DNA of 49,769 bases from Elainella sp. Prado103 (GTDB lineage: Bacteria > Cyanobacteriota > Cyanobacteriia > Elainellales > Elainellaceae), in NCBI GenBank assembly GCA_025454395.1, contig JALOOM010000017.1:1-49769 (forward strand), given 5' to 3'. The position numbers and the translations under genes are program-made. Positions 4,343 through 27,408 of this stretch are shown here, piece after piece. The first letter of the stretch is position 1. The number at the start of each line of letters is the position of its first letter. The notes beneath the pieces are model-generated. The model had not been told where the DNA came from. It did no database searches and saw only the letters and a list, made by a program, of their open reading frames with translations.

Positions 4343-6768
4343 CGATGGGGTAGGGCTTGGGGAAATCGCTGCGCCAAGGCTGGCAATAACGGGCAGGGCG
4401 ATCGACCCTCCAGATTTTCGGGTTTGCTCCAGCTAAAAGGAGCTTGACGAGCGGCTGACATCCAAAGTAAGCGGCGAGCCCGTGTCATGGCGACATAGAG
4501 TAAGCGGTATTCTTCAGCCAGTTTCAGGTCAGATGCCCGTTGCCAAGCAGTGGCTGGATCGGGAATTTCTGGTTCACCATGTACTTGGGATCGAATCTGG
4601 ACTCGGGCCACTTCTGCGAGGTTAAAGTCTCCCAGAAACTGACTTTGCGGCAATACTCGCAAGGAGCCTGGTAGCACTTGCTCATGCAAAAACGGGATGA
4701 AGACGAAATCCCAATCGAGCCCTTTGGCTTTGTGCATGGTGATGATCGTGAGTTGTCCGGGTCGGATATAGCGGGAGTCGGGGTCATCGGTTTCGATCGG
4801 TTCAAATCGTTCCGATCGCACAATCTCGTGAAGCACCTCTAACGTCGCTGCCATGGAAGATTGTCCTGCCGTTTGTTGGCTGATCCGATGGGCAAGTTTA
4901 TCGGCGGTTGCTAATTCTGCCTGGTCGAACTGTAGGGTGAGGGCAATGAAGGGAATCAACTGATAGTGAGGCAATTCCAACCGGGCTCGCAGCAATCCGG
5001 TACAGTAGCGACGGGCTTGCCAGACCGATTCCGATTGGGGTGGGTCGATCGGGCTGGGGTAGAGAAATTGTTCGGGTAGGCTAATCAGCGCATTCAGATC
5101 CTGGGGTGGAATTAACTGACGCTGTACCAGCAATTGCAGCAAGCCTTTCAGGGAATCGGGTGAATGGGGGCGATCGAGAAATTGCAGCACGGCCAGCACT
5201 TCTGAGGGCAGATGGGAATGGCGATCATCTTCGCCCACGTCAAAAATGGCAATGCCTAACGCGCCCAAATCTACCTCCAAGTCATATTGCTGGGGATGGC
5301 GCAGGCGATCAGTAATGAAACGACCTTGGCGATTTTCTCGCACCAGAATGGCGGCTCGGGCTTCCGGTTCGCGGCTCAGCAAGTCTGCCACCCGTTGGGC
5401 GATCAGCTCGATCGATCGGTACACATCTGGCGGAAAGCGAATTTCTAAACCGTTGCCCTCCGGATCGGGGTTGGCATCCGGCTGGGGGTCGTAGCGGGGG
5501 ACAGGACGAATCAACTGATGTCGAAACGGAGCCGATCCAGCTTTGCCATAGCGATCGTTGACCCAGGTGAGGGCAAAATTAGCAGCCTCCATGATCGCCA
5601 GACTACTCCGACCCGCCTGATCCATTTCAGCAAGCCGATCGGACTGGGCACACTGTTGACAAAACTCGGCGAAAAAGAGTGGATCCGCGGGAGTGAAAGT
5701 AGAGTTAATTGCCTGGTTGGGATCCCCCACTCGGACAAGATTCAAAGATGAACGACTCCCTGTACCTACTGCGATCGGATCCGTTGTCGCCTTACCGGGA
5801 TCGGCCGCTAGAATCTCCAACAATCGGGTTTGTAGCGGTGAAGAATCTTGAGCTTCATCTTCAAACACAGCGAAAATTTGCGATTGCCAAAACTGCCGCA
5901 CCTTGTCATCCTGCAGCACCTGCAACGCTGCCAAAATCATGTCGTCATAGTCGATGAAGCCGCGCTGTTGCAGTAAGGCTTGGTAGCGCTCGTAGAGTCC
6001 TGCTCCGATCGCCAGTACCTCATACGGGCTCCCCCGGTGCTGTCCAGAATAGGGTTCAGAATAGGGTTCAGAACGGGTCTGTGATGCGACTTGTTGAGCC
6101 AGTTGCCACACGGCATCTGGTTGCAAGCCTGAACTTTTAGCTTCATGAATAATCGTGTCGGCTAACTCTGGCAGAATTTCGGTGCGCAGAACCGCTTGGC
6201 GGCGCAATCGTTCGGTTTCTTCGCCATCAAACTGCCGTCCCTCCAGAAGTTGCTGATAAGTTTGAGGGTAGGCGGCGATCCATTGCTCCACACTGGTGCG
6301 AATGAGCCGATTACTCTGATTGGGCGAAATTAAGGTCAGGCGTTCTAAGTCTAATCCCGATAGTTGGGGATGGCGAGTCGCAATATGAAGCGCTAAACCA
6401 TGCAGAGTATGCACCATAAACCCCTGGGAGGGCACCGCCAGATCCCGGAGATACTGGCGAATTTTAGTTTTGAGGTTGGCGACGGCCGATCGGGTAAAGG
6501 TGACCAGCAGTAGCTGAGATGAATCGAGCGAGGTAGCAGCCTGATCCTCCCAAGCTGCTAGTTGAACCTGTTGGAGATAGCGCTGGGTGAGCAGGATGGC
6601 TGAGGCGATCGCCATACCGGTAGATTTCCCCGACCCTGGAACGGCCGAAACCGCTAAAATGCCCTGCTGCCAATCGGCGATCCGTCGCTGCCCCGGACGT
6701 AAGCTCTGCCGCAGTTGTTCAAGCAATTGCACTTGGGCCGGTGTAACGGAAGCAAGATGGATTGACAT
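4333..6768 (-). CDS. UvrD/Rep-type superfamily 1 DNA helicase
   Basis: 811 residues. Visible SF1 motifs: Walker A AVPGSGKST (42-50), motif Ia LLLVTFTRSAVANL (86-99), motif II FEDEAQDSS (302-310), motif III VGDPNQAI, motif V TIITMHKAKGLDWD and motif VI LLYVAMTRARR near the C-terminus. No PD-(D/E)XK nuclease domain is apparent after motif VI, so this is a helicase and not an AddA-type nuclease. It should unwind DNA 3'-5' in repair or replication restart. Residues about 233-242 (SEPYSEPYSG) come from an internal 12-bp tandem repeat and probably form a surface loop. The stop codon sits at the edge of another 12-bp array. The start ATG at 6768 lies 12 codons before a VTPAQ segment and looks right. 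Confidence 0.9.
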   Translation of the reverse strand: MSIHLASVTPAQVQLLEQLRQSLRPGQRRIADWQQGILAVSAVPGSGKSTGMAIASAILLTQRYLQQVQLAAWEDQAATSLDSSQLLLVTFTRSAVANLKTKIRQYLRDLAVPSQGFMVHTLHGLALHIATRHPQLSGLDLERLTLISPNQSNRLIRTSVEQWIAAYPQTYQQLLEGRQFDGEETERLRRQAVLRTEILPELADTIIHEAKSSGLQPDAVWQLAQQVASQTRSEPYSEPYSGQHRGSPYEVLAIGAGLYERYQALLQQRGFIDYDDMILAALQVLQDDKVRQFWQSQIFAVFEDEAQDSSPLQTRLLEILAADPGKATTDPIAVGTGSRSSLNLVRVGDPNQAINSTFTPADPLFFAEFCQQCAQSDRLAEMDQAGRSSLAIMEAANFALTWVNDRYGKAGSAPFRHQLIRPVPRYDPQPDANPDPEGNGLEIRFPPDVYRSIELIAQRVADLLSREPEARAAILVRENRQGRFITDRLRHPQQYDLEVDLGALGIAIFDVGEDDRHSHLPSEVLAVLQFLDRPHSPDSLKGLLQLLVQRQLIPPQDLNALISLPEQFLYPSPIDPPQSESVWQARRYCTGLLRARLELPHYQLIPFIALTLQFDQAELATADKLAHRISQQTAGQSSMAATLEVLHEIVRSERFEPIETDDPDSRYIRPGQLTIITMHKAKGLDWDFVFIPFLHEQVLPGSLRVLPQSQFLGDFNLAEVARVQIRSQVHGEPEIPDPATAWQRASDLKLAEEYRLLYVAMTRARRLLWMSAARQAPFSWSKPENLEGRSPCPLLPALAQRFPQALPHRSP
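6045..6080. repeat. 12-bp tandem repeat inside the helicase gene
   Basis: CAGAATAGGGTT at 6045-6056 and 6057-6068, then a diverged third unit CAGAACGGGTCT. It encodes the repeated SEPY loop of the helicase and keeps the reading frame. Confidence 0.8.
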
Positions 6769-12351: not shown

Positions 12352-13143
12352 TCAGCCTAGCGGCTCCAGCCCCGCGGCTCGCAATTGCTCTGCCAATCGA
12401 TCGGCCCGATCGCGTTCCTGCTCAGCTCGTTGGCGTTCCTGCTCAGCTCGTTGGCGTTCCTGCTCAGCTCGTTGGTGTTCCTGCTCAGCTCGTTGGCGTT
12501 CCTGCTCGATCTGTTCTGTTCCCCAGGGCAATAACTCACCCTGTGGGTTCCACCAGCGGAGCCAGTAGCCCGTCCGTCCAGCTCGACTTCCTTGCCAGAC
12601 TCCTAGCGCTAAATCAATTTCAGGTAGCCAATAATGCTGATGGGCATCTGGCGGCTGCAATTGGTAATGTCCGGATGCATCAAGGCGATAAACTTCTAGA
12701 ACGCCGCCATCAGGCTCAAAGATGACATATACCGGCACTTTCAGCACATGTTCATAAAAGAACCATTTGCCTGGTGGGTAAGTGGGCTTATTGGAATACT
12801 CACTCCCTTCCGTGTCAGAGAGAAATTCCATCACGATCGATAGCATTTCTCCTTGCAGTTGGGGTGTATAGCTGCGTTTCACCTCATCTCGCGGCACTCG
12901 GATGAATGGGACATAGGCCCAGTCGGGTGCTTTTACCACAATCCGATCGTTTAAGGTCGCACAAATCCCGTAGTTGGTGGGTGTGAGGGTGGTTGCTGAT
13001 AGCTTGTTGGCGAGTTCCAAGCTTTCGGTTAGGGCAGCAGCGATCGACGGCTGATTAATGTTATCCACAGGGTCATCATCTAAAACAAAGTCGTCAGGCA
13101 GTTTTTCCCATCTGACCTTGAAGGAGACAGGGCTGATGGTCAT
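12352..13143 (-). CDS. Uma2 family (DUF820) putative endonuclease with coiled-coil tail
   Basis: 263 residues. Residues about 1-205 form a Uma2 domain, a PD-(D/E)XK nuclease-like fold. APDWAYVPF supplies the first acidic position, IVMEFLSDTEGS the second, and the YEHVLKVPVYVIF segment matches the conserved helix and strand. The last 55 residues are a highly charged coiled coil built of the heptad QRAEQER, encoded by a 21-bp tandem array, then RLAEQLRAAGLEP. Coiled-coil tails of this kind are familiar on cyanobacterial Uma2 proteins, and copy number is likely to vary between strains. The cellular role of the family is not established. The start ATG at 13143 is the only good one. Confidence 0.85.
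   Translation of the reverse strand: MTISPVSFKVRWEKLPDDFVLDDDPVDNINQPSIAAALTESLELANKLSATTLTPTNYGICATLNDRIVVKAPDWAYVPFIRVPRDEVKRSYTPQLQGEMLSIVMEFLSDTEGSEYSNKPTYPPGKWFFYEHVLKVPVYVIFEPDGGVLEVYRLDASGHYQLQPPDAHQHYWLPEIDLALGVWQGSRAGRTGYWLRWWNPQGELLPWGTEQIEQERQRAEQEHQRAEQERQRAEQERQRAEQERDRADRLAEQLRAAGLEPLG
12414..12505. repeat. 21-bp tandem array encoding a coiled-coil heptad
   Basis: Four contiguous 21-bp units start at 12414, 12435, 12456 and 12477, each carrying TGCTCAGCTCGTTGG, plus a partial copy. On the minus strand each unit encodes one heptad (QRAEQER), so one repeat equals one coiled-coil heptad. Confidence 0.92.
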
Positions 13144-13227
13144 TGGCTTTCCTCGCGTGAGTGGTCACTGGAGATGGATGTATTCTGGCACGCTTACTTC
13201 TCTCTTTGCTATATCTGCTCGATGGGT

Positions 13228-13269
13228 TTGATCGATCGGACTTGATCGATCGGACTTGATCGATCGGAC
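13228..13269. repeat. 14-bp tandem array, 3 units
   Basis: Three perfect copies of TTGATCGATCGGAC, each containing the palindrome GATCGATC. It lies in the divergent Uma2/FkbM gap. Confidence 0.92.
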
Positions 13270-13365
13270 TTGATTTGTTCAGTTTGACTGAATTTGATTC
13301 GTTCAGTATTGTGACTCGTGAGCATCCACTATCGGATAACCCTATGCAGGAGAATATTCTTTAAT

Positions 13366-13410
13366 GTGTAGGTAGAAAAGGTGTAGGTGAAAAATGTGTA
13401 GGTAAAATCG
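13366..13410. repeat. 15-bp degenerate tandem array, 3 units
   Basis: Three 15-bp units, each beginning GTGTAGGT followed by an A-rich half (13366, 13381, 13396). It ends about 140 bp upstream of the FkbM start and could be in its promoter. Confidence 0.85.
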
Positions 13411-13552
13411 GATTTCTTGATGAATCTGTCTGCTCCCTATTGTCGATCGAACCTGTCTTTCCCTGCAATGCTTGGGGCTAGAACTGTTCTCCTGCCATGA
13501 ATCTGGGCATTCTAAATCAGCCCGACCTTCGCAACTTATAGACCCCCGACCC

Positions 13553-15244
13553 ATGACGACCCCCCATCCCCTTGAGCGCTATTTACAAGCATTGGATCGA
13601 TTGGAGCCAACGTTTGAGCTGAAATCCAATCGAACATTCAATCAAGTATTTAATCAAGTCTCTAGTCAAGCCTCTGGACAAGCCTCTGGACAAGCATTAG
13701 ATTCATCCCCTATCTGCTGGTCAAACCGGCTATCTCAGGCGGCATTAGAGCGGCTCCAGGCAACGACTCAATCGACGCATTGGGAAGAACCAGAAACGGC
13801 GCTTGATATTAACAACATTGCGGTGATGGCTTTGCTGGATGCCGAACAAGCCTCAGAGCCGATGCTTCGGAGTATGACGATCGAGATGGCGATCGAAGCC
13901 TTGTCTCAAGGTGCCCGGATTGGTCATCCTCTCTGCATTGCGCATTTAGCCATGGTGCATAGTTTGATGGGTGAGGCTGACACAGCTTTTCAGCTTGCGT
14001 TTCAGGGATTGATTGAAAATTTACAGCCAGCTTATCAAGCCGAATCCCTCCCGATCGGTCTGGTGTATTTGCCAGCTAACTCCCAAAGCCAAGTGACGCG
14101 ATCGGAAACATTGCATCAGGTTTTAGAAGCGGCAGATGGCTACCACCAAGCACTCCAAATTTTTGCCGCCGTTTTGTGTCAAATCCAGCTAGTATTCTAT
14201 AACCCCAGTGGCCAGCGCTTTCTGCAAGTTGCCCTTCAGCTCCATCCGAATGCGATCGGGCTCAATCTGAAGCAGGGGATTGCCAATCTGCTGAACCAAC
14301 AATGGGAAGGGCTGCTCCATTTGCATCAGGCTCAAGCGATGGCTCCCCAATCGGCTTTACTGGTACAAGCCCTTTATTTGGCTTATCGATCGCTCCAGCC
14401 CGATCTGGCAGCCGCTTGGTGGCAATATGGGCAAACCTGTGCGGCGGCGGCTCCCACTTCTGCCGATTGGCAATGGCTACAACTTCCAGCCGATGCTCCT
14501 TTCACCTATCTGAAGTTGGGTTCGCTACCGATCGCCGTTGAACCCAGCTTGCGCAGTATTGTCACCAGCGTTTTGCTCGCAGAAGGGGACTGGTTTGAAG
14601 CTGAAATGGAATTATGGCGCGATCAACTTCAGTCTGGTATGACGGTGATTGATGTTGGCGCGAATGTGGGTGTATATACCTTCAGTGCGGCTCAACGGGT
14701 AGGATCCAGCGGTTGTGTGATTGCGGTGGAACCCTTTTCAGGTTGTGTGCGATGTTTGGAGGAAACAAAACGCCTGAACCAATTGGATTGGGTAACGATC
14801 CGGGCCGGAGCTGCCAGTGATTGCCAGGGGACGGCGAGACTCGCGTTACGGTCTGCGAGCGAACTGAATGAATTGGTGACGGCTGATCAACCGATCGAAG
14901 GGGAATTTGAAGAAGTGCCTTGTTTCCCACTGGATAGCCTGATTGACTCGATCGGTATGACCCAACTGGACTGGTTAAAAATTGATGCAGAAGGGCATGA
15001 AATGCAAGTATTGCAAGGGAGTGAGCGGCTATTAACTGAATTCCAACCTGCGATCCTGTACGAAAATATTGCCGGAGCCAGTGCTAGCAATACCCCTGTT
15101 GCGGTTTATCTACAATCGAAAGGCTATCGGCTATTTCGCTATCAGCCCTACCTGAAAAACCTGATTCCGGTAAATTCCCTCGAAGATCTGCGGCAGAGTC
15201 TGAATGTGATCGCTCTACCGGCCGATCGCTGCCCGTCGGATTAA
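13553..15244 (+). CDS. FkbM family SAM-dependent methyltransferase with N-terminal helical region
   Basis: 563 residues from the ATG at 13553; an upstream in-frame start at 13472 is weaker. Residues about 30-50 are a four-residue repeat of the form xQ(V/A)x. Residues 60-330 look like an all-helical TPR-like region. The C-terminal 210 residues are an FkbM methyltransferase: VIDVGANVGVYTF (SAM-binding loop, near 363), VIAVEPFSGC (motif II) and WLKIDAEGHEMQVLQG near 478. FkbM enzymes O-methylate sugars or related hydroxyls. Its position directly against two GT41-type glycosyltransferases suggests methylation of a glycan or glycosylated product. Its stop abuts the stop of the convergent GT41 gene with no spacer. 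Confidence 0.85.
   Translation: MTTPHPLERYLQALDRLEPTFELKSNRTFNQVFNQVSSQASGQASGQALDSSPICWSNRLSQAALERLQATTQSTHWEEPETALDINNIAVMALLDAEQASEPMLRSMTIEMAIEALSQGARIGHPLCIAHLAMVHSLMGEADTAFQLAFQGLIENLQPAYQAESLPIGLVYLPANSQSQVTRSETLHQVLEAADGYHQALQIFAAVLCQIQLVFYNPSGQRFLQVALQLHPNAIGLNLKQGIANLLNQQWEGLLHLHQAQAMAPQSALLVQALYLAYRSLQPDLAAAWWQYGQTCAAAAPTSADWQWLQLPADAPFTYLKLGSLPIAVEPSLRSIVTSVLLAEGDWFEAEMELWRDQLQSGMTVIDVGANVGVYTFSAAQRVGSSGCVIAVEPFSGCVRCLEETKRLNQLDWVTIRAGAASDCQGTARLALRSASELNELVTADQPIEGEFEEVPCFPLDSLIDSIGMTQLDWLKIDAEGHEMQVLQGSERLLTEFQPAILYENIAGASASNTPVAVYLQSKGYRLFRYQPYLKNLIPVNSLEDLRQSLNVIALPADRCPSD
13628..13699. repeat. 12-bp degenerate tandem array inside the FkbM gene
   Basis: Six 12-bp units from 13628, for example AATCAAGTCTCT and GGACAAGCCTCT (twice). 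They encode a run of four-residue repeats with a fixed glutamine near the N-terminus. Confidence 0.8.
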
Positions 15245-15248
15245 TTAA
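15241..15248. other. Palindrome TTAATTAA formed by two convergent stop codons
   Basis: The TAA of the FkbM gene (15242-15244) and the TAA of the GT41 gene (complement of 15245-15247) abut. They form an 8-bp palindrome and leave no room for a terminator between the convergent genes. Confidence 0.8.
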
Positions 15249-17533
15249 CCGTTACTTATGAAGCTCGCGAACTGCTGGCTCCATGTCCGATAAGCTTGTT
15301 CCAACTGGCGAGTCAATTGGCGAGCATTCCAGAGCGGAGCGGTTTGACGAGATTTTTGCAGTTGCCAAGCGATTTGGTCGCGCAGGGTTGCATCTATGCC
15401 AAATCGCACTCCCCATGCTACATATTCAGGATCATTCCAAGCAATTCCAGCCGTGATTCCCACATTGATTAACATGGTGTAGCTGTTGCGTGCCGCAAAT
15501 TGTTGTCCAACTTGGGTGATGATCGGGATCCCCATCCACAATGTTTCCAGCGTGGTGGTGGCTCCATTGTAGGGAAAGGTGTCGAGGACGACATCGGCTA
15601 GGCTTAAATTGGCGCGATGGGTTTCTTCGTTAGCAGTGGGCGGCAAAAACCGGAGTCGATCGCCCGTCACGCCTTCAGCCTCAGCAATCTGCAAAAACAT
15701 CTTCTGCATGGCAGTTTCGCTCCCTAGCCCCTTAATCAGGAAATAACTGTTGGGCACTTGCTTGAGAATCTGCATCTGGAGTCGAATATTGCCTGGATTG
15801 CGCTTCTGTCCCGTTTGAGCGCTAAAATAAACGATCGCATCATCGGGTATGTCTAAATCCCTTCTTTTTAAGTTGGGAACACCTACTTCAAACCCATCAA
15901 CCGCAATGTAAGTCTGCGGTAATCGCCAAATGGTTTCCTGATAATATTCTTGTGCATTTTCCGGTAATACATAGGGATCGGCAATAAAGTAGTCAATAGT
16001 GGGAATTCCGGATGCATCCAGCCCTAGCCAGGTTGCTTGAATGGGAGCAGGTTTGAGAGCCATTACCTGGCAGGTGACATCCATTGTTAAGCTGTCTAAA
16101 TCAATCAGGATGTCGATCCCATCTTGCTGAATTAGGCGAGCAATCTCCAGGGCATCAGCACCGCAGAGCCGAGACTGAGTAGCATTTTGGGCAAACCAAC
16201 GCTCACCAAATGAGCTGAGTTGTGTCTCCATGACAAAGTAGGCATAGACTTCAAATTGGCTGCGATCGAAATGCTCGAAAACCCAGCGGCAGAGCCAACC
16301 TACGGAATGTCGGCGAAAACAGTGACAGATATAACCAATTCGTAGTTTCGATCGATCTGAGACTCTGAGGGAGTAATTTAGTGAATAATTTTTAATATGT
16401 TTCTGAGTAAATCTTTTCAAATTATCTGCATAAACTTGAGCGAGCCGATTTTGAAGATGACGAGTTCGAATCGGTGTATCTGAAAAGTACGGATAGGAAA
16501 ACATAGTGCTACAGAGCAGTAACGGGCTGAGTAAAGTGTCGTCACCGATATTGGGTGCTGCCAACCACTGATTGAGCCGCTCCGTTAACTGATCTAAAGC
16601 CCCTACGGCTGCGTTCCACCGTCCTGCCATCCGTAAATTGGCGCGTACTAACAAGGCGGCACTTAAAATCTTGTCTGGTAGCTGGGCGATCGAATCCGCC
16701 ATGCATCGATCATATTGTTCCGCCATCATTAAGCCGAGTTCATACTGACCGGAATCCTGGTACCAACGACTGAGGCTGCCAATCACATCCGGCTGATTCG
16801 GCCAGATTTGCAGACAGAGTTCGCCATACTGACAAGCCAAGTCATAGCGCCCCTGCACCGTCGCCCAATAATTTCCTAAGGACAAGAGCCGATCGATCCA
16901 ATCCTGCTGCTCGGTTGCGGTTAAGGTTGATAGAACGGGCAAACTAACGGCTGTGTAATCGATCGCTGCCGGATGATCGGGCATTTTGTCCCACAGTTGG
17001 GAGAGCAGGGTCAAAATTGCAGTCCGAATTGCGGTGAGTTCGATCGGCGATAAGGACTGCATCTGGGTCACGATGCCCCAATCCTTGAGAATACTAGGAT
17101 CAAACGGTTGCGTCAGCCAGTGCAGTGAAACCAACGGCAACAGGTTCTTCATCCCTTCCAGCGTCCATTCTGCCGGTACTAACTGGCGGATATGCTGCCG
17201 AATTAACCAGGCTGTTTCCCACTGCTGGCGATCGGATTGCGCCTGGGCTGCCGCATCAAGACACTTCAACAAATCCGCTGTCCAGGCTGCCATCTGAGCC
17301 TCCGCCTGCGGCTCTCCCGCTACTTCGGTAAACGGGGTCATCCAGGTAAACTGAGCTTCTGTTTCCTGCCCATGGAGTAAGTACGCCAAGCCCAACTGCC
17401 AATATGCCTCCCAGCACTGTGGATCGGCTGCAAGAATTTGTTCATACCCCTCGATCGCCAAAGTGTAGTTTTGGTCTGTCATCTGGCTCTGGGCAAGCTG
17501 GAGATCCGATCGATCGGGAGAAGAGGGAGTCAT
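15245..17533 (-). CDS. GT41 O-GlcNAc-transferase/SPINDLY-like glycosyltransferase, copy A
   Basis: 762 residues. The N-terminal part has a TPR pair (YEQILAADPQCWEAYWQLG) and further helices to about residue 370. The C-terminal half is the GT41 catalytic region: RIGYICHCFRRHSVGWL (near 395-412, with the conserved His), DILIDLDSL, LKPAPIQATWLG, IDYFIADPYV, and DTFPYNGATTTLETLWMG near 648, which binds the UDP part of the donor. Bacterial relatives glycosylate proteins on Ser/Thr or make glycans; the acceptor here is unknown. A closely related paralogue lies just upstream on the same strand, so this is a tandem duplication. Twenty bases before the start begins a 14-bp tandem array. Confidence 0.85.
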   Translation of the reverse strand: MTPSSPDRSDLQLAQSQMTDQNYTLAIEGYEQILAADPQCWEAYWQLGLAYLLHGQETEAQFTWMTPFTEVAGEPQAEAQMAAWTADLLKCLDAAAQAQSDRQQWETAWLIRQHIRQLVPAEWTLEGMKNLLPLVSLHWLTQPFDPSILKDWGIVTQMQSLSPIELTAIRTAILTLLSQLWDKMPDHPAAIDYTAVSLPVLSTLTATEQQDWIDRLLSLGNYWATVQGRYDLACQYGELCLQIWPNQPDVIGSLSRWYQDSGQYELGLMMAEQYDRCMADSIAQLPDKILSAALLVRANLRMAGRWNAAVGALDQLTERLNQWLAAPNIGDDTLLSPLLLCSTMFSYPYFSDTPIRTRHLQNRLAQVYADNLKRFTQKHIKNYSLNYSLRVSDRSKLRIGYICHCFRRHSVGWLCRWVFEHFDRSQFEVYAYFVMETQLSSFGERWFAQNATQSRLCGADALEIARLIQQDGIDILIDLDSLTMDVTCQVMALKPAPIQATWLGLDASGIPTIDYFIADPYVLPENAQEYYQETIWRLPQTYIAVDGFEVGVPNLKRRDLDIPDDAIVYFSAQTGQKRNPGNIRLQMQILKQVPNSYFLIKGLGSETAMQKMFLQIAEAEGVTGDRLRFLPPTANEETHRANLSLADVVLDTFPYNGATTTLETLWMGIPIITQVGQQFAARNSYTMLINVGITAGIAWNDPEYVAWGVRFGIDATLRDQIAWQLQKSRQTAPLWNARQLTRQLEQAYRTWSQQFASFISNG

Positions 17534-17552
17534 GAGAAGGAGGTAAATCAGA

Positions 17553-17594
17553 AGTGATGAGATCAGAGTGATGAGATCAGAGTGATGAGATCAG
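17553..17594. repeat. 14-bp tandem array, 3 units, in the GT41-A leader
   Basis: Three perfect copies of AGTGATGAGATCAG directly upstream of the GT41-A start codon on the minus strand. A second short duplication (TGATAGTGACATCA twice, about 17618-17646) follows in the same 120-bp gap between the paralogues. Confidence 0.92.
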
Positions 17595-17653
17595 AGATGG
17601 GAATAATTGAGCTGAAATGATAGTGACATCAATGATAGTGACATCAAAAGAGT

Positions 17654-19891
17654 TCAGTTAGAATCTCTGTAAATCTGCCACATTTGGCGGTAAGCTGCTT
17701 CCAACGATCGGGTGAATTCAGCGGTATTCCACAGTGGGGCAGATCGACGTGCTTGCCGGAGTTGAGTCGCAACCTGCTGACGGAGTGCTAGATCGGTGCC
17801 GAGTCGAATACCCCATTCAATATACTCGCGATCGTTCCAGGCAATTCCAGTAGTCACTCCTACATTCATCAACATAGTGTAACTGTTACGAGCAACAAAC
17901 TGTTGACCAACTTTCGTAACAATCGGGATCCCCATCCACAGCGTTTCTAAGGTTGTGGTGGCTCCATTGTAGGGGAAGGTGTCGAGCACCACATCAGCCA
18001 GACTTAAATTGGCGCGATGGGTGACTTCATTCGGATCACGCTCCAAAAAACGGAGGCGATCGAAGGAAATACCGACTTCTGCGGCCAGTTCGGCACAGGC
18101 AGTTTGCAATGATGCTTCATCTGCTAAGCCTTTCAGCAACAAATAGCTATGGGGAACTGCTTGTAAAATTTGCAGTTGCAAACGCAGGGTGTCTGGATGA
18201 CGTTTTCGACCATCTTGAGCGCTAAAATAGACGATTCCATCTCTAGGAATATTCAATTCCTCACGCCTGCGAGTCGGAATTCCTACCTCAAATCCGTCCA
18301 CGGCAATGTAGGTGTGCGGTAATCGCCAGATTTGCTCTGCATAGTAGGACTGAGCATGGTCGGGCAGCACATAGGGATCGGCTAAAAAGTAATCGATTGC
18401 AGGCAAGCCAGAGGCATCACATCCTAGCCAAGAGACCTGGATCGGGGCGGGTTTAAGCGCCATAACACGGCAGGTTTCGGTGTAGGTAATGCTATCTAGA
18501 TCGACCAGAATATCAATTTTGTCTTGCTGAATCTGTTGTGCAACTCGTGTCCAGTAAGTGTCAGCAAACTGCACCGATCGCGTCACGGGTTGAACAAACC
18601 AACGATCGGTAAAGGTGCTGATTTCAGGAACATGGAGATGATAGGTATAAATATCAAATTGATCTCGATCGTGGTATTGCATCAGCCAACGAGCTAGCCA
18701 ACCCACTGAGTGCTGGATCATGTAGCGAGCCAGATAACCCACTCTGAGCTTTCTAGAAGTAGACTCAAGATGGGATTGAAATAAAGGTGCGACCAGACCA
18801 TGGTGATACTGAGCTTGAAAACAAATATCAGTTTGGAGGAGTTGGGCTAACTGATTGTGAGATAAACGATAATCGATGGGTTGATCATGTAAATAATAGG
18901 GATAGAATCCACAAAAGCTGAGGAGAGCCGGTTTTAAAGGATGATCGGGAGCAGGCTGATAGGTTGCTACCAGTTCATTGATCAGAGCTTTCTGCTGTTC
19001 AAAGAATTGCCTTACTTCCGTCCAGCCCCCACTCACTTTCAGGAGTCGCAGGCAGAGAAACCCGATCGCCATCAGCCGCGCTTCTAGATTCCGGCAAGCT
19101 TCCAGATAGCGTCGAGCAGTTGTCACGGCTTCCTCATAACGCCGCAGTGTCTCATATTGGACAGACAGCAACTTCAGGAGGTCAGGCGAATCAGACTCAT
19201 AGCGTAAACAAATTTCGACTAAATAGGCAATCAAACCAGCATCGCTGCGTCTGCTGCGTCGATCGAGTGCTTCAGCTTCATCTGTGAGGACTGCCACGAT
19301 CAAAGCCGGATCCGCCACCTGGGTTAAGACCGCCTCAGTGAATGACTGGGCTTCTGGCAGAGGGAAATGGTGCGACAGTAATGTCATGGCAGTTTGTAAC
19401 GCCAGGGCTGCATCCCAGTTGGGTCGATCGGGCGAGGCTAGGAGTTGATCGATCAGCCCATCCTGAAGCCATGCTGGATCGAAGCGATTGAGCGGCACCG
19501 CCAGCCGGATTAAATGCAGCCGGTTGTTGATCTGATCCGGCACAATTTCCTGAAGATGGAGCCGAATCAACCAGGCGGAAGCGTCTGCGCCGATCGCCTC
19601 CTGACGGATCGCCTCCTGATCGAGTAATGTGGCTAAGGAGAGGGTTTCAATCAAGTTCACCCGATCGGGCTGGGTCTGCTCGGGCCGGGTCTGCTCCTGC
19701 TCGAAAACTGCCATCGCCCAAGTCATCTGTGCGGCCGCTTCCTGTTCCGTCAGAAGATAGGCTAAGCCCAGATGCCAATAGTGGCTCAATTCCTCTGGTT
19801 CTAACTCGATCAACTGCTCATAGAGCTGACCTGCCTCAATGTAATGACCGGCTTGCCAGAGGTTAATGGCTGCTTGTTGGAGAGGATGCAT
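17654..19891 (-). CDS. GT41 O-GlcNAc-transferase/SPINDLY-like glycosyltransferase, copy B
   Basis: 745 residues from the ATG at 19891; an in-frame start at 19972 would add 27 basic residues that the paralogue lacks. Architecture is the same as copy A: TPR-like helices (YEQLIELEPEELSHYWHLG), then RVGYLARYMIQHSVGWL near 395, DILVDLDSI, LKPAPIQVSWLG, IDYFLADPYV and DTFPYNGATTTLETLWMG near 634. Catalytic blocks are nearly identical to copy A while the N-terminal halves differ strongly, which suggests the same chemistry with different acceptor or partner recognition. Confidence 0.85.
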   Translation of the reverse strand: MHPLQQAAINLWQAGHYIEAGQLYEQLIELEPEELSHYWHLGLAYLLTEQEAAAQMTWAMAVFEQEQTRPEQTQPDRVNLIETLSLATLLDQEAIRQEAIGADASAWLIRLHLQEIVPDQINNRLHLIRLAVPLNRFDPAWLQDGLIDQLLASPDRPNWDAALALQTAMTLLSHHFPLPEAQSFTEAVLTQVADPALIVAVLTDEAEALDRRSRRSDAGLIAYLVEICLRYESDSPDLLKLLSVQYETLRRYEEAVTTARRYLEACRNLEARLMAIGFLCLRLLKVSGGWTEVRQFFEQQKALINELVATYQPAPDHPLKPALLSFCGFYPYYLHDQPIDYRLSHNQLAQLLQTDICFQAQYHHGLVAPLFQSHLESTSRKLRVGYLARYMIQHSVGWLARWLMQYHDRDQFDIYTYHLHVPEISTFTDRWFVQPVTRSVQFADTYWTRVAQQIQQDKIDILVDLDSITYTETCRVMALKPAPIQVSWLGCDASGLPAIDYFLADPYVLPDHAQSYYAEQIWRLPHTYIAVDGFEVGIPTRRREELNIPRDGIVYFSAQDGRKRHPDTLRLQLQILQAVPHSYLLLKGLADEASLQTACAELAAEVGISFDRLRFLERDPNEVTHRANLSLADVVLDTFPYNGATTTLETLWMGIPIVTKVGQQFVARNSYTMLMNVGVTTGIAWNDREYIEWGIRLGTDLALRQQVATQLRQARRSAPLWNTAEFTRSLEAAYRQMWQIYRDSN

Positions 19892-20216
19892 GGGTTTGCT
19901 TTGACACAAGTTGCTTCTGCATAAATTTCTGGACTGGCAGCGACTCAGTTTCAGCTTAGGAGTGAAAATCAAGTAACTGGCGAAATTTAAGGCGAAATTT
20001 AAGATGCAGTGATTGGAATGAATTCTTGTTCTTTCAGTTTAGCCAATGACGATCAGCAATTTGTCGATTCCAGCAAAATAACGCAGAATAATTGGCCATG
20101 CACTCCAACCGGGAGTATCGATCCGTTGGATGGTTCAAAAGCCAAGCACCCAAACCAAGTGGACGAAAATATGCGCTAAAATCTGTCAGGTTCGACGTAT
20201 CGAGCAATTAATCGAG

Positions 20217-20305: not shown

Positions 20306-22062
<1,757 letters not shown>

Positions 22063-22447: not shown

Positions 22448-23233
22448 CTATTTCGAGTTATATTCGAGAATGACTGGAATCAGCCATTGCTCAATCTCCT
22501 GAAGGTAAGCTGTTAGACCTGTATTTCCACCTCTTCGCCGTAGAAGCTCTAGACTGGGTTCTTCCCAACATTGCTGTTCTCGTAGCTTATTGCTACCTGT
22601 AAGTTCTTCAAGCACTACTTTAGGATTCCGAATCCGTTCAGGTTCTTCCCAAGAGTTAGAACGTAATCTGTGTGACTCCTCGCAAGGATCAAAATTCAAT
22701 TGGTTCTTAATATTCTCTAAAATTTGCCTTTCTTCTGGATCAGATGGAACAAAGCCATTTAAAACCCAAGCTTCCCGCATTCGATCAGCCGTACCAATGA
22801 TAATCTCTAATTTAGGTTGTCGATCAATATGTTCTGCACGGGCTTGCTCAATACCTTCTCTTCGCTCAGGTTGATTATCTAAATCCCGAATTAAGAGAAC
22901 TGCTCCAACTTGTCGGATCTTTTTAAGCTGAAGAAGTCTTATTAGATTCAAAATTTTCATTGTTGCTGCACCATCAGCTTTCAATGCTCCGCTTCTGCTA
23001 TGCCCCAAAAACTTTGGAACAGGCAGACCTGACTCCTTAGCACTCTGCATGATACTGTTGATATCTTTCCAGCATGAATGCTCAGTTCCTACCTCCAATC
23101 CGCTCCATCGAAATAAGCTTTGTAAAAGCTCAGGCTCTAACCAATCTACTTTTTCTACGAGTACACGCTCAGCTAATTTAGTGGCAGTTTGTGCATCCGC
23201 ACTACTTTCAACAATTACAACAAACTCAAGCAT
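22448..23233 (-). CDS. TOPRIM/DUF4276-like protein, partner of adjacent ATPase
   Basis: 261 residues. The pattern fits a TOPRIM-type fold: a first strand with a conserved acid, FVVIVES (E9), and a later strand ending in AVLLIRDLDNQ (D117, D119, a DxD pair), then ADRMREAWVLNG (151-160), which resembles the E-A-W block of DUF4276/RloB-like proteins. It would be a Mg2+-dependent nuclease or nucleotidyl-transfer enzyme if active. The start codon overlaps the end of the ATPase gene by 8 bp, so the pair is coupled. Paired ATPase and TOPRIM proteins occur in OLD, PARIS and related phage-defence systems; membership here is inference. The gene is more A+T-rich than its neighbours and has no CGATCG. 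Confidence 0.6.
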   Translation of the reverse strand: MLEFVVIVESSADAQTATKLAERVLVEKVDWLEPELLQSLFRWSGLEVGTEHSCWKDINSIMQSAKESGLPVPKFLGHSRSGALKADGAATMKILNLIRLLQLKKIRQVGAVLLIRDLDNQPERREGIEQARAEHIDRQPKLEIIIGTADRMREAWVLNGFVPSDPEERQILENIKNQLNFDPCEESHRLRSNSWEEPERIRNPKVVLEELTGSNKLREQQCWEEPSLELLRRRGGNTGLTAYLQEIEQWLIPVILEYNSK

Positions 23234-24362
23234 TTACCTCTCCAGCAACCACCCAATCTTCTCCCTCCGCATCCCAAAACTCACCAGTGGTCAAAGTTTG
23301 TTTTGCCCATTCCACATCAGGATGCTCGTCTAATCGTTTAGAACTGGTGAATCCTGAGTTCGTATTACTCAATACATGAACTTGGGATGGAGTAAGCTCA
23401 TCTACGATATAAGGAGAGTGTGTAGAAAAGATAATTTGCAGATTTCTATTAGATTGAATGATCTCCTTAAAAACAGTAATTAATTCCCGCTGCGCTTTTG
23501 GATGAAGCCCTTGCTCTACATCATCTAGCAATACTAAATTTGGTTGCTTAGGATTCATTAACACAGCCAGCAATCCCAGAGTTAACATTGTCCCTTCACT
23601 AATAGCATGAGCAGGAATACGCTCACCCGTATTCATATCTAGTACAATCTCTTGTCCAGCAATTTCCTGGCTTTCTTCATAGGAAATAGATTTTCCATCA
23701 ACTTCAATTAAACGTTGCCGATTGATCATAACTTTGGCACGTCTTACTCCTACTTTTTGAACCCCTGGAACAATCCGCTGCAACATTTCCTGTAAGGATT
23801 GGAAATTATCCGGGGCTTCATCACGAAGATAGTCTAATGTAGGTGCCAACCCTGAACCATCAAATTCAACTCGCGGAGTAATTGCCTCACTATAAGCTGC
23901 TTTTGCGAGATTGGTAGCTACTAGCTTGAGATGAACCGCAAATCTCAACGCTTGAGGTATTGGATATGAAACAGTACTCAACGAAGCGTCCCAACCTTCT
24001 GCTTGTCCTGCATCCTGATCGACACTCCATAATGCTTTTGGAAACCATTTGTTCTCTTGCTGTTGCTGAAACTTATAGGAGGCTTCCCAAGTTTTGTGGT
24101 TATTCTGATATCCCCAGAAACCACTTCCACTAACAGACACATGATTTTGTCCAACTGTGGCAATAAATTCAGGTGATCTTTGATATCTGAAGATGTTTTT
24201 AAACTGGGAATCTGCAAGCCGACTCAGATAATGCAACGCTTGCAAAACAGATGTTTTTCCAGAACTGTTTTGTCCTACCAGTGCATGTAAGCGCGAACCG
24301 TCTAGATTAAGCTGTGTGGATCGATGACTTTTAAAGTTATAAAGTTCGACCTTTTTAAGCAT
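23226..24362 (-). CDS. AAA ATPase of the OLD/RecF-like (AAA_15/AAA_21) type
   Basis: 378 residues. ABC-ATPase head features in order: VELYNFKSHRS, Walker A GQNSSGKT (30-37), a long inserted middle region (about 60-235), a signature-like AISEGTMLTLGLLAVL (253-268), Walker B LVLLDDVEQGLHP (276-288) and H-loop FSTHSPYIVDEL (312-323). The Walker B ends in Asp-Asp, as in RecF, and not in the Asp-Glu usual in this class. There is no C-terminal TOPRIM domain as in class 1 OLD nucleases; that function appears to be supplied by the overlapping downstream gene. It probably senses or binds DNA or a phage component and gates the partner enzyme. No CGATCG occurs in the gene. Confidence 0.8.
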   Translation of the reverse strand: MLKKVELYNFKSHRSTQLNLDGSRLHALVGQNSSGKTSVLQALHYLSRLADSQFKNIFRYQRSPEFIATVGQNHVSVSGSGFWGYQNNHKTWEASYKFQQQQENKWFPKALWSVDQDAGQAEGWDASLSTVSYPIPQALRFAVHLKLVATNLAKAAYSEAITPRVEFDGSGLAPTLDYLRDEAPDNFQSLQEMLQRIVPGVQKVGVRRAKVMINRQRLIEVDGKSISYEESQEIAGQEIVLDMNTGERIPAHAISEGTMLTLGLLAVLMNPKQPNLVLLDDVEQGLHPKAQRELITVFKEIIQSNRNLQIIFSTHSPYIVDELTPSQVHVLSNTNSGFTSSKRLDEHPDVEWAKQTLTTGEFWDAEGEDWVVAGEVNA

Positions 24363-24600: not shown

Positions 24601-25046
24601 GTTGGTACAGCTACTCTTGCTTTTTACTTCTCTCTGAATTGTATTTATGCTCTTGAGTTGGTGTGTTCTCTCGAGCTTGCTTGTTCGCTTGAAGCTAGGT
24701 CAGAACTTGAAGCTAAGTCAGAACTTGAAGCTAAGTCAGAACTAAAATATAAAATCCAACTACTCAAAGAGAAATTGCCAGATCCATGTAGAGAAAATGA
24801 AGGAAAGTTGAGAAAGTGGTGGAAAACTCATGGTCAATCTTGGGTAGAGAAATTTCGGATAGTGATGATCGAACATCGCACATCGGCCATGATTGGCAGT
24901 TTTCTGAAGAACAAAAAGAACTCTTACGGCAATACCATGGTGCAAATAAGCTACTGGTCGATTGTCTGAATAGCGATTGTTATATTAGTCGAACAGTAAG
25001 AGAGGAAATTGAAAATACTTTGCTGTTGCCGATCTCATCTATCTGA
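24601..25046 (+). pseudogene. 3' remnant of a NACHT-type NTPase gene, frameshifted
   Basis: Two overlapping frames join into one protein-like tail. The first, open from 24601, gives the Leu/Glu/Ala-rich helical repeat (ALELVCSLELACSLE), then LKEKLPDPCRENEG, WWKTHGQSWVEKF and VMIEHR. After about 24880 the sense continues in another frame with IGHDWQFSEEQKELL, LLVDCLNSDCYIS and REEIENTLLLPI, ending at the stop at 25044-25046. From memory this is the C-terminal tail of cyanobacterial NACHT-domain proteins, where EHRNIGHDW is continuous; one missing A after CGC at 24879 would explain the break. No NACHT ATPase domain is present upstream, so only the end of the gene survives. Confidence 0.65.
24688..24741. 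repeat. 18-bp tandem array, 3 units, in the NACHT-like remnant
   Basis: Three units CTTGAAGCTA(G/A)GTCAGAA at 24688, 24706 and 24724. They encode a six-residue LEA(R/K)SE repeat. Confidence 0.9.
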
Positions 25047-25150: not shown

Positions 25151-25392
25151 TACGTTTGTGCATCTGGCTGCTTTGCGTGGGTATGCTAACTGCAAGTAGT
25201 CCAGCAGCCTGCTCTGTGGTTGATCTTGAATTTCAACGAGAGCCTGATCTCACCGCATCCATGCCTCAGACTTCCGCTACACTGAAGTCAGATAGGCATA
25301 GCTGCAATGGTGAACACGATCCATCCTTCCGCCAATCCCCTCACCGACACCTGGGTGACCGCCACTTGGGAAGAGTTTTCGATCGTGGTTAG
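25141..25392 (+). other. Doubtful 83-codon ORF with signal-peptide-like start
   Basis: It begins MSTLRLCIWLLCVGMLTASS followed by PAAC, resembling a lipoprotein signal with a poor lipobox. The second half overlaps the start of the Uma2 gene in another frame and reads like random sequence. It may be a decayed gene start or chance. Confidence 0.2.
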
Positions 25393-25954
25393 CCGTCCAG
25401 AATTTGAGCAGGCGCGCTGTTACTACGATGCCGGATGGATGAGGATCGAAACCATGCCGATCGATTTTGCCCATGGACGAGATAACGCCCTGTTGGCAGC
25501 GGCTGTGAGTTTATATGGCACCTTGAAAAATATCCCCTTCTTGTCGATCACCAACGGCAGCTTTCGCAAAACCGGCGAGCGAGAATGCCAGCCTGATTTA
25601 GCTTTTTACATCGGCGACACCTTGCCCAACATCCCTCGTAGCAATAGTCTCGTCGATATCGATCGTTACGGATCGCCAACCCTGGTGATTGAGATCGCTT
25701 CCACCACCTTGAGCGACGATTTAGGACAAAAACGCCTGCTATACGAGCGGTTGGGTGTAGCAGAATATTGGGTCGTGCAGGTGGAAGCCGCTACCGTGAT
25801 CGCCTTTACGATCGTCGATCGAGGCAGTCGGCAGATTTCCGTTTCAACCGTCTTACCTGGGCTGACGCTAACGACGATCGAGTCCGCATTACAGCGTAGC
25901 CAAACGGAAGATGATGGTGCAGTGACTCGCTGGCTCCTACAGCAGTTCCAATAA
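25307..25954 (+). CDS. Uma2 family (DUF820) putative endonuclease
   Basis: 215 residues. Uma2 signature: ECQPDLAFYIG (first acidic position), TLVIEIAST (second acid), QKRLLYERLGVAEYWVV (basic residue, helix and strand). The PD-(D/E)XK-like core is complete and the length is normal. The function of the family in cyanobacteria is not established. It is the first of three Uma2 genes within 2.2 kb, and it is flanked by imperfect direct repeats, so it may have arrived or been duplicated as a small cassette. Confidence 0.88.
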   Translation: MVNTIHPSANPLTDTWVTATWEEFSIVVSRPEFEQARCYYDAGWMRIETMPIDFAHGRDNALLAAAVSLYGTLKNIPFLSITNGSFRKTGERECQPDLAFYIGDTLPNIPRSNSLVDIDRYGSPTLVIEIASTTLSDDLGQKRLLYERLGVAEYWVVQVEAATVIAFTIVDRGSRQISVSTVLPGLTLTTIESALQRSQTEDDGAVTRWLLQQFQ

Positions 25955-25999: not shown

Positions 26000-26060
26000 G
26001 CCCAAAAACTGCTTAGCCCGAAAACTGCTTAGCCCGAAAACTTCATTAGCCCGAAAACTG
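25999..26060. repeat. 16-bp tandem array spanning a Uma2 stop codon
   Basis: Units of AGCCCGAAAACTGCTT at 25999 (one change), 26015, 26031 (17 bp, diverged) and 26048. The unit at 26048 is the coding tail of the minus-strand Uma2 gene, whose TAA is the complement of 26046-26048. The others are copies of that tail, mostly with the stop, lying downstream of the gene. Confidence 0.85.
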
Positions 26061-26678
26061 TTGTCTGAACTGCCGGATCGCCTGACTACTGCTCTGCTGA
26101 TAGGCGATCGATCGGTATTCCTGCACCAGAGACGGAAGCTGGAGATCGGGAAAATAGCGGCTGACGGATGTTAAACGGTAAGCGTCATCTTCTAGCCTGT
26201 ACAGGTTCAGCGCTTCTGCCTTAAACATCCAGACTTCTGGTACTCGGTAGGGTAAATAATCGTTGACGTTACTGTAGTTGGTTACGTCAATTTCCAAAAT
26301 CAGATCGGGCGGCGGATCCACCTGCCAGTCGATCCGTTTTTTGCCTCGAACCTGCTCTAGATGATCGATATAAAAACAGTAGTCAGGTTCGATGCCGCCT
26401 GACTCTGGCAAGGTCATCGTGATCGGCGTAAACGCATCATATTCCAGTCCTTTCACATCCAGCAGAACCTTGATCAGATCCGCTAAAAAACTGGCATCTT
26501 TGCCATGCTCCGGTAACGGCGACATCAGCCACATTTCTCCTCGGCAATACTTGATTCGCGGCACTGAGCGATCGCCCCGCTGCTGAGCTACCGCCTGATA
26601 TTCCTGCCAAGTGGCTGGTACCCGAATGACGGTTCCGGCCGGCAGATCGATCTGGCTGGGGGAAATCAGGATGAGCAT
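26046..26678 (-). CDS. Uma2 family (DUF820) putative endonuclease
   Basis: 210 residues. Core motifs: GIEPDYCFYI (first acid), LILEIDVTN (second acid), then YRVPEVWMFK. The usual lysine between the second acid and this helix is not obvious (SNVNDYLPYRVPEVW), so catalysis may be altered. Convergent with the preceding Uma2 gene and divergent from the next. Its last five codons (QQFSG and stop) seed the downstream 16-bp tandem array. Confidence 0.85.
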   Translation of the reverse strand: MLILISPSQIDLPAGTVIRVPATWQEYQAVAQQRGDRSVPRIKYCRGEMWLMSPLPEHGKDASFLADLIKVLLDVKGLEYDAFTPITMTLPESGGIEPDYCFYIDHLEQVRGKKRIDWQVDPPPDLILEIDVTNYSNVNDYLPYRVPEVWMFKAEALNLYRLEDDAYRLTSVSRYFPDLQLPSLVQEYRSIAYQQSSSQAIRQFRQQFSG

Positions 26679-26814: not shown

Positions 26815-27408
26815 ATGACTCAAGCCAAAGCCAAATTCGCCTCATTTGCAGAATACTTAGCCTACAGCGATCAAGCTGCGATCGAAGGTCGCTATGAATT
26901 GATTGCAGGAGAATTAGTTGAATTGCCACCCGAATCGAGATTGAATAGTACCATTGCTGTGCGTATTCTGCTTGCCCTCGCTGCTATTGGTATCCCGATT
27001 GAACTCCTGCATCCTGGTAAATGTGAAGTCCAAGTTCCAATCTTGCAGCCCAAGGACGCGGCGAATCGGTTTCCGGATCTGGTGGTGCTACGATCGGAAC
27101 ACCTAGAATTGACTCAGCGCAGGCTGACGATTACCCTGGATATGCCGCCCCCTCGCCTAGTGGTTGAAGTCGTGAGTCCAGGAAAGACCAATCGCGATCG
27201 AGATTATATTCACAAACGCGCTCAGTATGCAGCGATCGGCGTTGCAGAATATTGGCTGATCGATCCAGAAATGCAAACGGTGATGGTGCTGAAACTCGAT
27301 CGTGAAGCTGATCAAGAACTTGGAATCTATAGCGGTGCAGAGATTATCACCTCGATCGAGTTTCCGGAGCTGAAACTGTCGGCTGCACAGATTTTTGCTG
27401 AAAATTGA
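26815..27408 (+). CDS. Uma2 family (DUF820) putative endonuclease
   Basis: 197 residues. Motifs: RFPDLVVL (first acid), LVVEVVSPGK (second acid), DYIHKRAQYAAIGVAEYWLID (basic residue, helix and strand), all well conserved. This is the most canonical of the four Uma2 proteins in the window. Start ATG at 26815 follows a 136-bp divergent gap from the previous Uma2 gene. Confidence 0.9.
   Translation: MTQAKAKFASFAEYLAYSDQAAIEGRYELIAGELVELPPESRLNSTIAVRILLALAAIGIPIELLHPGKCEVQVPILQPKDAANRFPDLVVLRSEHLELTQRRLTITLDMPPPRLVVEVVSPGKTNRDRDYIHKRAQYAAIGVAEYWLIDPEMQTVMVLKLDREADQELGIYSGAEIITSIEFPELKLSAAQIFAEN

Follow-up and report, generated by a model that had tools for sequence, protein, structure and literature searches.

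Operons that join an OLD-type ABC ATPase to a TOPRIM protein are regarded as an established architecture of biological conflict (PMC12839542, PMC12409363). Aravind and colleagues described these TOPRIM-linked OLD-ABC operons as systems of conflict, and they were later re-reported as PARIS and Gabija (PMC12839542). In PARIS, which has been proposed as a class 4 OLD system (PMC10568477), a hexamer of the ATPase AriA is described as holding three AriB molecules; binding of a phage protein to AriA frees AriB, which forms a dimer and cuts tRNA (PMC12409363, PMC11455837). The Toprim domains of OLD proteins are reported to cut DNA (PMC6755086). A two-gene locus of this general kind lies in a 49,769-nucleotide stretch of the cyanobacterium Elainella sp. 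Prado103 (assembly GCA_025454395.1, contig JALOOM010000017.1, positions 1 to 49,769), hereafter the window. According to the list of open reading frames (ORFs) of the window, gene A (23226-24362, 378 amino acids) is followed by gene B (22448-23233, 261 amino acids), both on the reverse strand, as are all features within the two genes given below. The kind of system is thus already known; what is new is a variant of the TOPRIM-linked OLD-ABC dyads whose B family matches no Pfam or NCBIfam entry. The explanation favored here, with confidence somewhat above even, is that the pair forms a PARIS-like, horizontally mobile two-gene conflict module.

Gene A encodes an ABC ATPase of the OLD type that lacks a nuclease domain, which confirms what had been proposed in an earlier reading of the DNA letters alone (the sequence-only reading). 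It matches AAA_21 at 5.9e-31 (109.1 bits; cut-off 27) and AAA_15 at 9.1e-27, and the Pfam scan of A returned no nuclease family. In an alignment of 36 A proteins, the Walker A motif GQNSSGKT (residues 30-37; 24252-24275; G30, N32, G35, K36 and T37 in 36/36), the signature SEGT (255-258), the LHP motif (286-288) and H315 are invariant, and the Walker B acids D280 and D281 are kept in 35 and 34 of the 36, respectively. The AlphaFold2 model of A, with a predicted local distance difference test score (pLDDT) of 89.4, has its best solved match in retron PtuA (9o4a_B; Z 23.3, root-mean-square deviation [rmsd] 3.1, 294 residues aligned), followed by Rad50/SMC heads at Z about 21-22. Among the most conserved parts of the protein is its C-terminal tail (residues 355-371; 23250-23300), in which G360, G367, E368 and W370 are found in 36/36 and E361 in 35/36; model confidence is low there, the last three block pLDDT values being 67, 67 and 56.

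Gene B is harder to place by sequence. Window B is without a Pfam or NCBIfam match up to E 1, and a PDB sequence search with it was empty up to E 10; in PADLOC it is matched solely by HEC-01B (0.0025, over positions 59-117 of the 197 in the profile) and mad4 (0.0047, B residues 4-137). Among 39 aligned B proteins, which are 34-83% identical to window B, mad4 is matched by 11 (best 2.3e-5), any single HEC-01B model by at most five, RloB by three (best 0.0018), Toprim by two (0.11) and DUF3226 by one (0.11), alongside seven or so unrelated weak family names (11 families in total). A search for publications on this family found none, bioRxiv preprints as such and most subscription journals lying outside it. 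Invariant in all 39 proteins are E9, D13, D117, D119, R153, E154, W156, L158, N159, G160, K205, R218, E219 and C222; E9, D117 and D119 had been singled out by the sequence-only reading as TOPRIM-like acids. Within the R-E-A-W block at residues 153-156, only A155 varies (38/39).

The order of these residues recalls the active site reported for Bp OLD, where the metal A site comprises E400, D455 and D457 and the metal B site E404, T506 and E508, with K562 near the scissile phosphate (PMC6755086). In B, the TOPRIM motif 1 glutamate E9 and the acid D13 (residues 9-13; 23195-23209) have the +4 spacing of E400 and E404; E9 follows strand 2-8, and D13 lies in helix 11-28. The DxD motif D117/D119 (residues 117-119; 22877-22885), at the end of strand 109-117, parallels D455/D457; E154 (22772-22774), the first residue of helix 154-159 and a proposed metal B ligand, parallels E508; and K205 (22619-22621), in helix 204-212 and the proposed transition-state lysine, parallels K562. 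The AlphaFold2 model of B has a mean pLDDT of 94.7 and a predicted template modeling score of 0.91. Its best solved match after VIA re-ranking is 2p62, the uncharacterized Pyrococcus protein PH0156 (Z 9.9, rmsd 5.1, 188 aligned), and four C-terminal regions of class 2 OLD proteins match it at Z 6.4-7.0 (rmsd 4.6-5.2, 173-179 of 198-208 residues). A fold other than TOPRIM had been named as grounds for abandoning the sequence-only reading; OLD Toprim domains are among the better-covering solved folds of B, though the match is modest. AriB is not among the structures listed for this fold search, which excludes nothing. From the order and spacing of its residues and its predicted secondary structure, B is most plausibly a TOPRIM protein that carries nearly all of the two-metal residues.

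The split of ATPase and TOPRIM between two proteins had led the sequence-only reading to recall PARIS with a different second subunit, and the comparison bears this out, A being of the OLD/PtuA type and B being read as TOPRIM. Like PARIS, the locus consists of two adjacent genes encoding an AAA_21/AAA_15-type ABC ATPase and a separate TOPRIM-type protein. The published PARIS rule asks for AAA_15 or AAA_21 (27 bits for AAA_21) in one protein and DUF4435 (PF14491) at 27 bits or more in its partner (PMC9122126). A passes the AAA_21 threshold; however, neither window B nor the families found over the 39 members include DUF4435, so the locus falls outside the rule. PARIS further entails abortive infection set off by an anti-restriction protein, with cleavage of tRNA. 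A is also shorter, with 378 amino acids as against the 464 residues of the AriA chains in PDB. Class 2 OLD proteins (GajA of Gabija; Bp and Xcc OLD) share the OLD-type ATPase and the TOPRIM-type series of a glutamate, a +4 acid, DxD, a later glutamate and a distal lysine, but carry ATPase and TOPRIM in one chain, whereas here these are two polypeptides. No Gabija helicase gene was recognized beside the window pair on reading the ORFs, not every neighbor having been searched with profiles. Among solved folds, A matches Retron/Septu PtuA best (Z about 21-23); unlike PtuA, however, A is partnered by a TOPRIM-like protein rather than the HNH protein PtuB, and no reverse transcriptase was recognized adjacent by reading. 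RloB (PF13707), finally, matches the three B members noted above and not window B.

Although A and B are separate genes, they appear to travel together. A pattern scan of one genome per species over 84,980 species, using [FL]IRDLDNQ and REAWVLNG, gave 59 loci and will have missed more distant relatives. Both genes are full length at 45 of the 59; at seven A is full length and B broken or short, two show the reverse, one has both genes broken, three are cut by contig ends and one is a fragment only (broken copies, 10/59 with the three contig-end loci excluded). The 8-bp overlap between the A stop and the B start, pointed out in the sequence-only reading and located at 23226-23233, recurs at exactly 8 bp in 36 of the 44 intact pairs measured, which makes it more than chance and suggests translational coupling. 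A directly precedes B at all seven loci (L093, L095-L100) from metagenome-assembled genomes (MAGs) of Myxococcota, Pseudomonadota, Bacteroidota, Acidobacteriota and Planctomycetota, in which B is 34-43% identical to window B. Moreover, pairwise distances of A and B correlate, with r 0.92 over 45 rows and 0.67 over the 36 rows left when the most distant are removed.

The distribution of the pair is patchy. Within the phylum, B is matched in 21 of 386 genomes, from 14 of 143 genera (own genome counted); the match is near full length in 16 of the 21 and partial in five. Closer to the source, the pair was seen in 0/4 congeners, 0/8 other family members sampled and 1/7 more distant genomes. B is single-copy in the source genome (5.84 Mb), and its nearest named copies are cyanobacterial. 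In the B tree, one Methylococcaceae and one Chloroflexaceae MAG stand among the cyanobacterial rows, their branches carrying no star. These placements may stem from contaminated MAGs, although on the Methylococcaceae contig the guanine-plus-cytosine (GC) content of the pair, 41.0%, differs from the 52.7% of its flanks. The pair lies below its flanks in GC at 15 of 15 loci compared, the smallest gap being 0.2 points. In the window, the pair stands at 41.4% against 50.9% for the window minus 22-26 kb. This unusual composition upholds part of what the sequence-only reading had called an atypical island; the low-GC stretch around the pair extends for only about 3 kb, however, and only two of four neighboring ORFs scanned gave a family match. 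Overall, the pair looks like one cassette, solitary and roaming, rather than a member of a defense island. Given a B with no sequence match in Pfam, NCBIfam or the PDB and the lack of defense islands around it, discovery based on such islands would tend to miss this pair.

Individual loci illustrate how copies come apart. One contig (L035, G022:C1) bears an intact pair and, about 6 kb away, a broken partial B (6232-6537 and 12730-14629). At L088 (8083-10432), the two pieces of B that follow a full-length A are separated by about 1.5 kb, which suggests an insertion in B. Two genomes of genus g60 (L036 and L041, in G251 and G284) differ in that one has an intact pair and the other only short A and B remnants, each upstream of a near-identical membrane-protein gene (ABC-3 type by eye); this is likely a loss event. 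In the window, the pair sits between a gene that reads by eye as pyrG (20392-22062) and a Uma2 gene. A comparison of six relatives around pyrG was tried as a source of an empty site and set aside: downstream synteny is not conserved and no clean empty site emerged.

The sequence-only reading had made no mention of the most variable part of A, a hypervariable segment at residues 48-148 (23919-24221) with its core at residues 85-135 (23958-24110). In a Microcoleus/Tychonema set of nine members, A is near-frozen except for residues about 71-150. Over four separate pairs, nonsynonymous (pN) and synonymous (pS) differences per site are 0.176 and 0.194 in the segment (ratio 0.91) and 0.029 and 0.206 in the rest of A (0.14); the choice of pairs was made by hand, and in the B tree L050/L051 and L058/L066 are sisters, L057/L061 lie in an unresolved fork and L075 is absent. 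Ratios for segment and rest are 0.72 and 0.14 in Aphanizomenon/Dolichospermum, 0.40 and 0.13 in the Nostoc group, 0.27 and 0.12 in Roseofilum, and 1.06 and 0.21 in Okeania. As a control, RecF, a housekeeping ATPase related to A, gives 0.16 in these genomes both in a segment at the matching offset and elsewhere, for three of the four pairs (L058-L066 is left out, RecF of L058 not having been recovered); RecF itself changes somewhat faster near residues 161-200. B is without such a patch, with an overall ratio of 0.33 over nine pairs. For individual pairs, L069-L070 and L070-L077 among them, synonymous distance too is two to three times as high in the segment as in the rest of A, suggesting exchange of divergent alleles. 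The segment is predicted to be beta-rich and keeps conserved tryptophans and predicted strands, the tryptophans arguing against a plain loss of constraint. Diversifying selection on the patch is suggested, and the patch fits the description of a trigger-recognition surface.

By analogy with described systems, the pair probably acts in abortive-infection defense. A would oligomerize and keep B inactive, possibly with its conserved tail, residues 355-371, serving as the dock for B. A phage product would bind the beta-rich hypervariable patch of A at residues about 85-135, and the resulting change of state in A would free or activate B. B may then cut a host nucleic acid, with tRNA (the target of AriB) and DNA (that of OLD) as equally open options, and this cleavage would stop growth or kill the infected cell. 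The case for a conflict role draws on the patchy distribution of the pair, its transfer, its decayed copies and the hypervariable patch, and not on the neighborhood. A narrower proposal, put forward only tentatively and regarded as rather doubtful, is that A is a germline-variable receptor whose patch shifts between sister species along with their phage triggers while it switches a two-metal TOPRIM effector. If so, trigger specificity should move with the patch when it is exchanged. The hypervariable patch turns the question of what dyad ATPases sense into a direct experiment.

A number of observations weigh against the conflict-module explanation, beginning with the surroundings of the pair. 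Proteins within 5 kb of the pair were collected from the 14 of 21 phylum genomes with contigs long enough for a control (127 proteins; two of the 14 genomes hold partial copies only) and compared with one region per same contig (110 proteins). PADLOC families number 29 among the 127 neighbors and 64 among the 110 controls, and the argument from a defense island was dropped; the sequence-only reading had drawn support for defense from this neighborhood, which lends it little. The predicted fold of B is another such point, since its match is modest: the list that contains the OLD matches has unrelated folds at up to Z 7.8, and Foldseek with the B model against PDB and viral models gave nothing at E <= 0.001. 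Furthermore, the residue correspondence between B and Bp OLD is one of order, spacing and secondary structure, not superposition, and B has no conserved equivalent of T506 (residue 152 varies). Walker B motifs usually end in a glutamate where A has D281, and this aspartate, to judge from the motif, could mean slow or absent ATP hydrolysis. Part of the broken copies may be assembly errors, and a search for B in phage, plasmid and viral-contig collections gave no match. As for the patch, the contrast in rounded nonsynonymous and synonymous differences (165/48 in the segment against 75/152 in the rest) has a Fisher value of 3e-21 that is post hoc, the segment 48-148 having been chosen after the conservation profile. 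One of the six sets, Phormidium (L043/L045), is reversed at 0.56 in the segment and 1.32 in the rest, with few changes and an interrupted A in L045. An excess of dN over dS in A is not significant (binomial p 0.73 for residues 48-148 and 0.57 for 85-135), and relaxed constraint remains compatible with the patch, as pN/pS does not exceed 1 overall.

Other explanations of the pair account for some of these data. By profile, HEC-01 and MADS are its nearest catalogued relatives, with B falling short of both, and it is unlikely, if still to be taken seriously, that the pair is simply a divergent member of HEC-01 or of the mad3-mad4 couple of MADS instead of a separate variant. HEC-01A is the best PADLOC model for A (3e-34), but AriA (4.8e-31) is close behind, followed by mad3 (2.2e-23) and models of AbiLi and PtuA; with several ATPase models scoring A, profile rank names no system. 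HEC-01B and mad4, the only PADLOC matches of B, are weak and partial, HEC-01B covering 59 of 197 profile positions, and in a genome search with one HEC-01B model and mad4 the source genome was not matched at E 0.001. The NCBIfam MAD3 equivalog gives A 90.4 bits against a cut-off of 420, and no other MADS gene was recognized beside the pair on reading the ORF list, whose neighbors were not all profile-scanned. DUF4276 (PF14103) bears on the same question, as cyanobacterial DUF4276 proteins have E, DxD and E-x-W type motifs like those of B, and DUF4276 and HEC-01B models match some common genes. The DUF4276-like EAW block seen by the sequence-only reading (REAW, 153-156) holds only as a resemblance of motifs; a DUF4276 match at the 30.2-bit cut-off was found neither for window B, nor among the families of its 39 relatives, nor in the source genome. 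Profile-profile comparisons of B with two DUF4276 sets were insignificant, although the best segments still fell on the expected motifs, and neither an RloB set nor an OLD-like TOPRIM set was matched significantly; the comparison of DUF4276 with RloB is insignificant as well, which shows how little this test can resolve on such alignments.

Three further alternatives concern what the pair does. That it is a selfish cassette resembling toxin-antitoxin systems, in which B is a toxic nuclease and A its antitoxin, and which serves addiction or plasmid exclusion and not protection from phage, is judged quite unlikely. The overlapping genes, differing contexts and frequent breakage would suit such a cassette, AriA has been described as an antitoxin that sequesters AriB (PMC11455837), and Uma2, the commonest Pfam family among the neighbors, shows a mild excess there (11 of 127 against 2 of 110 in the control, Fisher 0.023), alongside four PIN genes in the same 127. 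However, A is the upstream and larger gene and carries a fast-evolving patch that addiction alone leaves unexplained, and deletion of either PARIS gene is reported as non-toxic (PMC9122126). A role of the pair as a genome-maintenance or stress ATPase and nuclease, akin to RecF- or OLD-like repair, is less probable again. The fold of A resembles Rad50/SMC in addition to PtuA, the archaeal OLD-family ATPase Cran1 is described as acting in cell-cycle progression and apparently not in defense (PMC12796447), and the neighbors are mixed and often housekeeping-looking. Nevertheless, the pair is absent from most sampled genomes, all four congeners and all eight other family members included, copies are broken, GC lies below that of the flanks, and RecF of the same genomes is without a fast patch at the matching position. 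Housekeeping neighborhoods had also been named as evidence that would speak against defense; the flanks vary between genomes, and no constant housekeeping partner was seen by reading. Finally, it is very improbable that the variable segment of A is an unconstrained surface and B a catalytically dead, TOPRIM-like scaffold. Such an account could point to a segment pN/pS that does not exceed 1 and to the seven of 59 loci with A full length and B broken or short, but all 39 aligned B proteins keep the six catalytic-type residues, and the segment, set in an ATPase that is conserved elsewhere, retains conserved tryptophans and predicted strands.

The remaining observations concern the window around the conflict-module candidate. 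A scan for promoters and terminators returned one site each, fewer than in shuffles. A Pfam scan of four neighboring ORFs gave family matches for two only, the first being the C-terminal relic of a NACHT gene at 24742-25031 on the forward strand. The sequence-only reading had noted a NACHT-like remnant here, and rightly so: NCH2 is matched at 6.2e-11, its parts at 24742-24888 and 24864-25031 being read in different frames, which leaves the end of the gene broken. Contig C102 of the source genome has one more NCH2 match. The second matched neighbor is the Uma2 gene, at 25307-25954 (2.2e-25), beyond which the ORFs at 26046-26678 and 26815-27408 are Uma2-like by eye. On the other side of the pair, two adjacent long ORFs within 15245-19972 (reverse strand), of 762 and 772 amino acids, are similar to each other and resemble TPR/O-GlcNAc-transferase proteins by eye.

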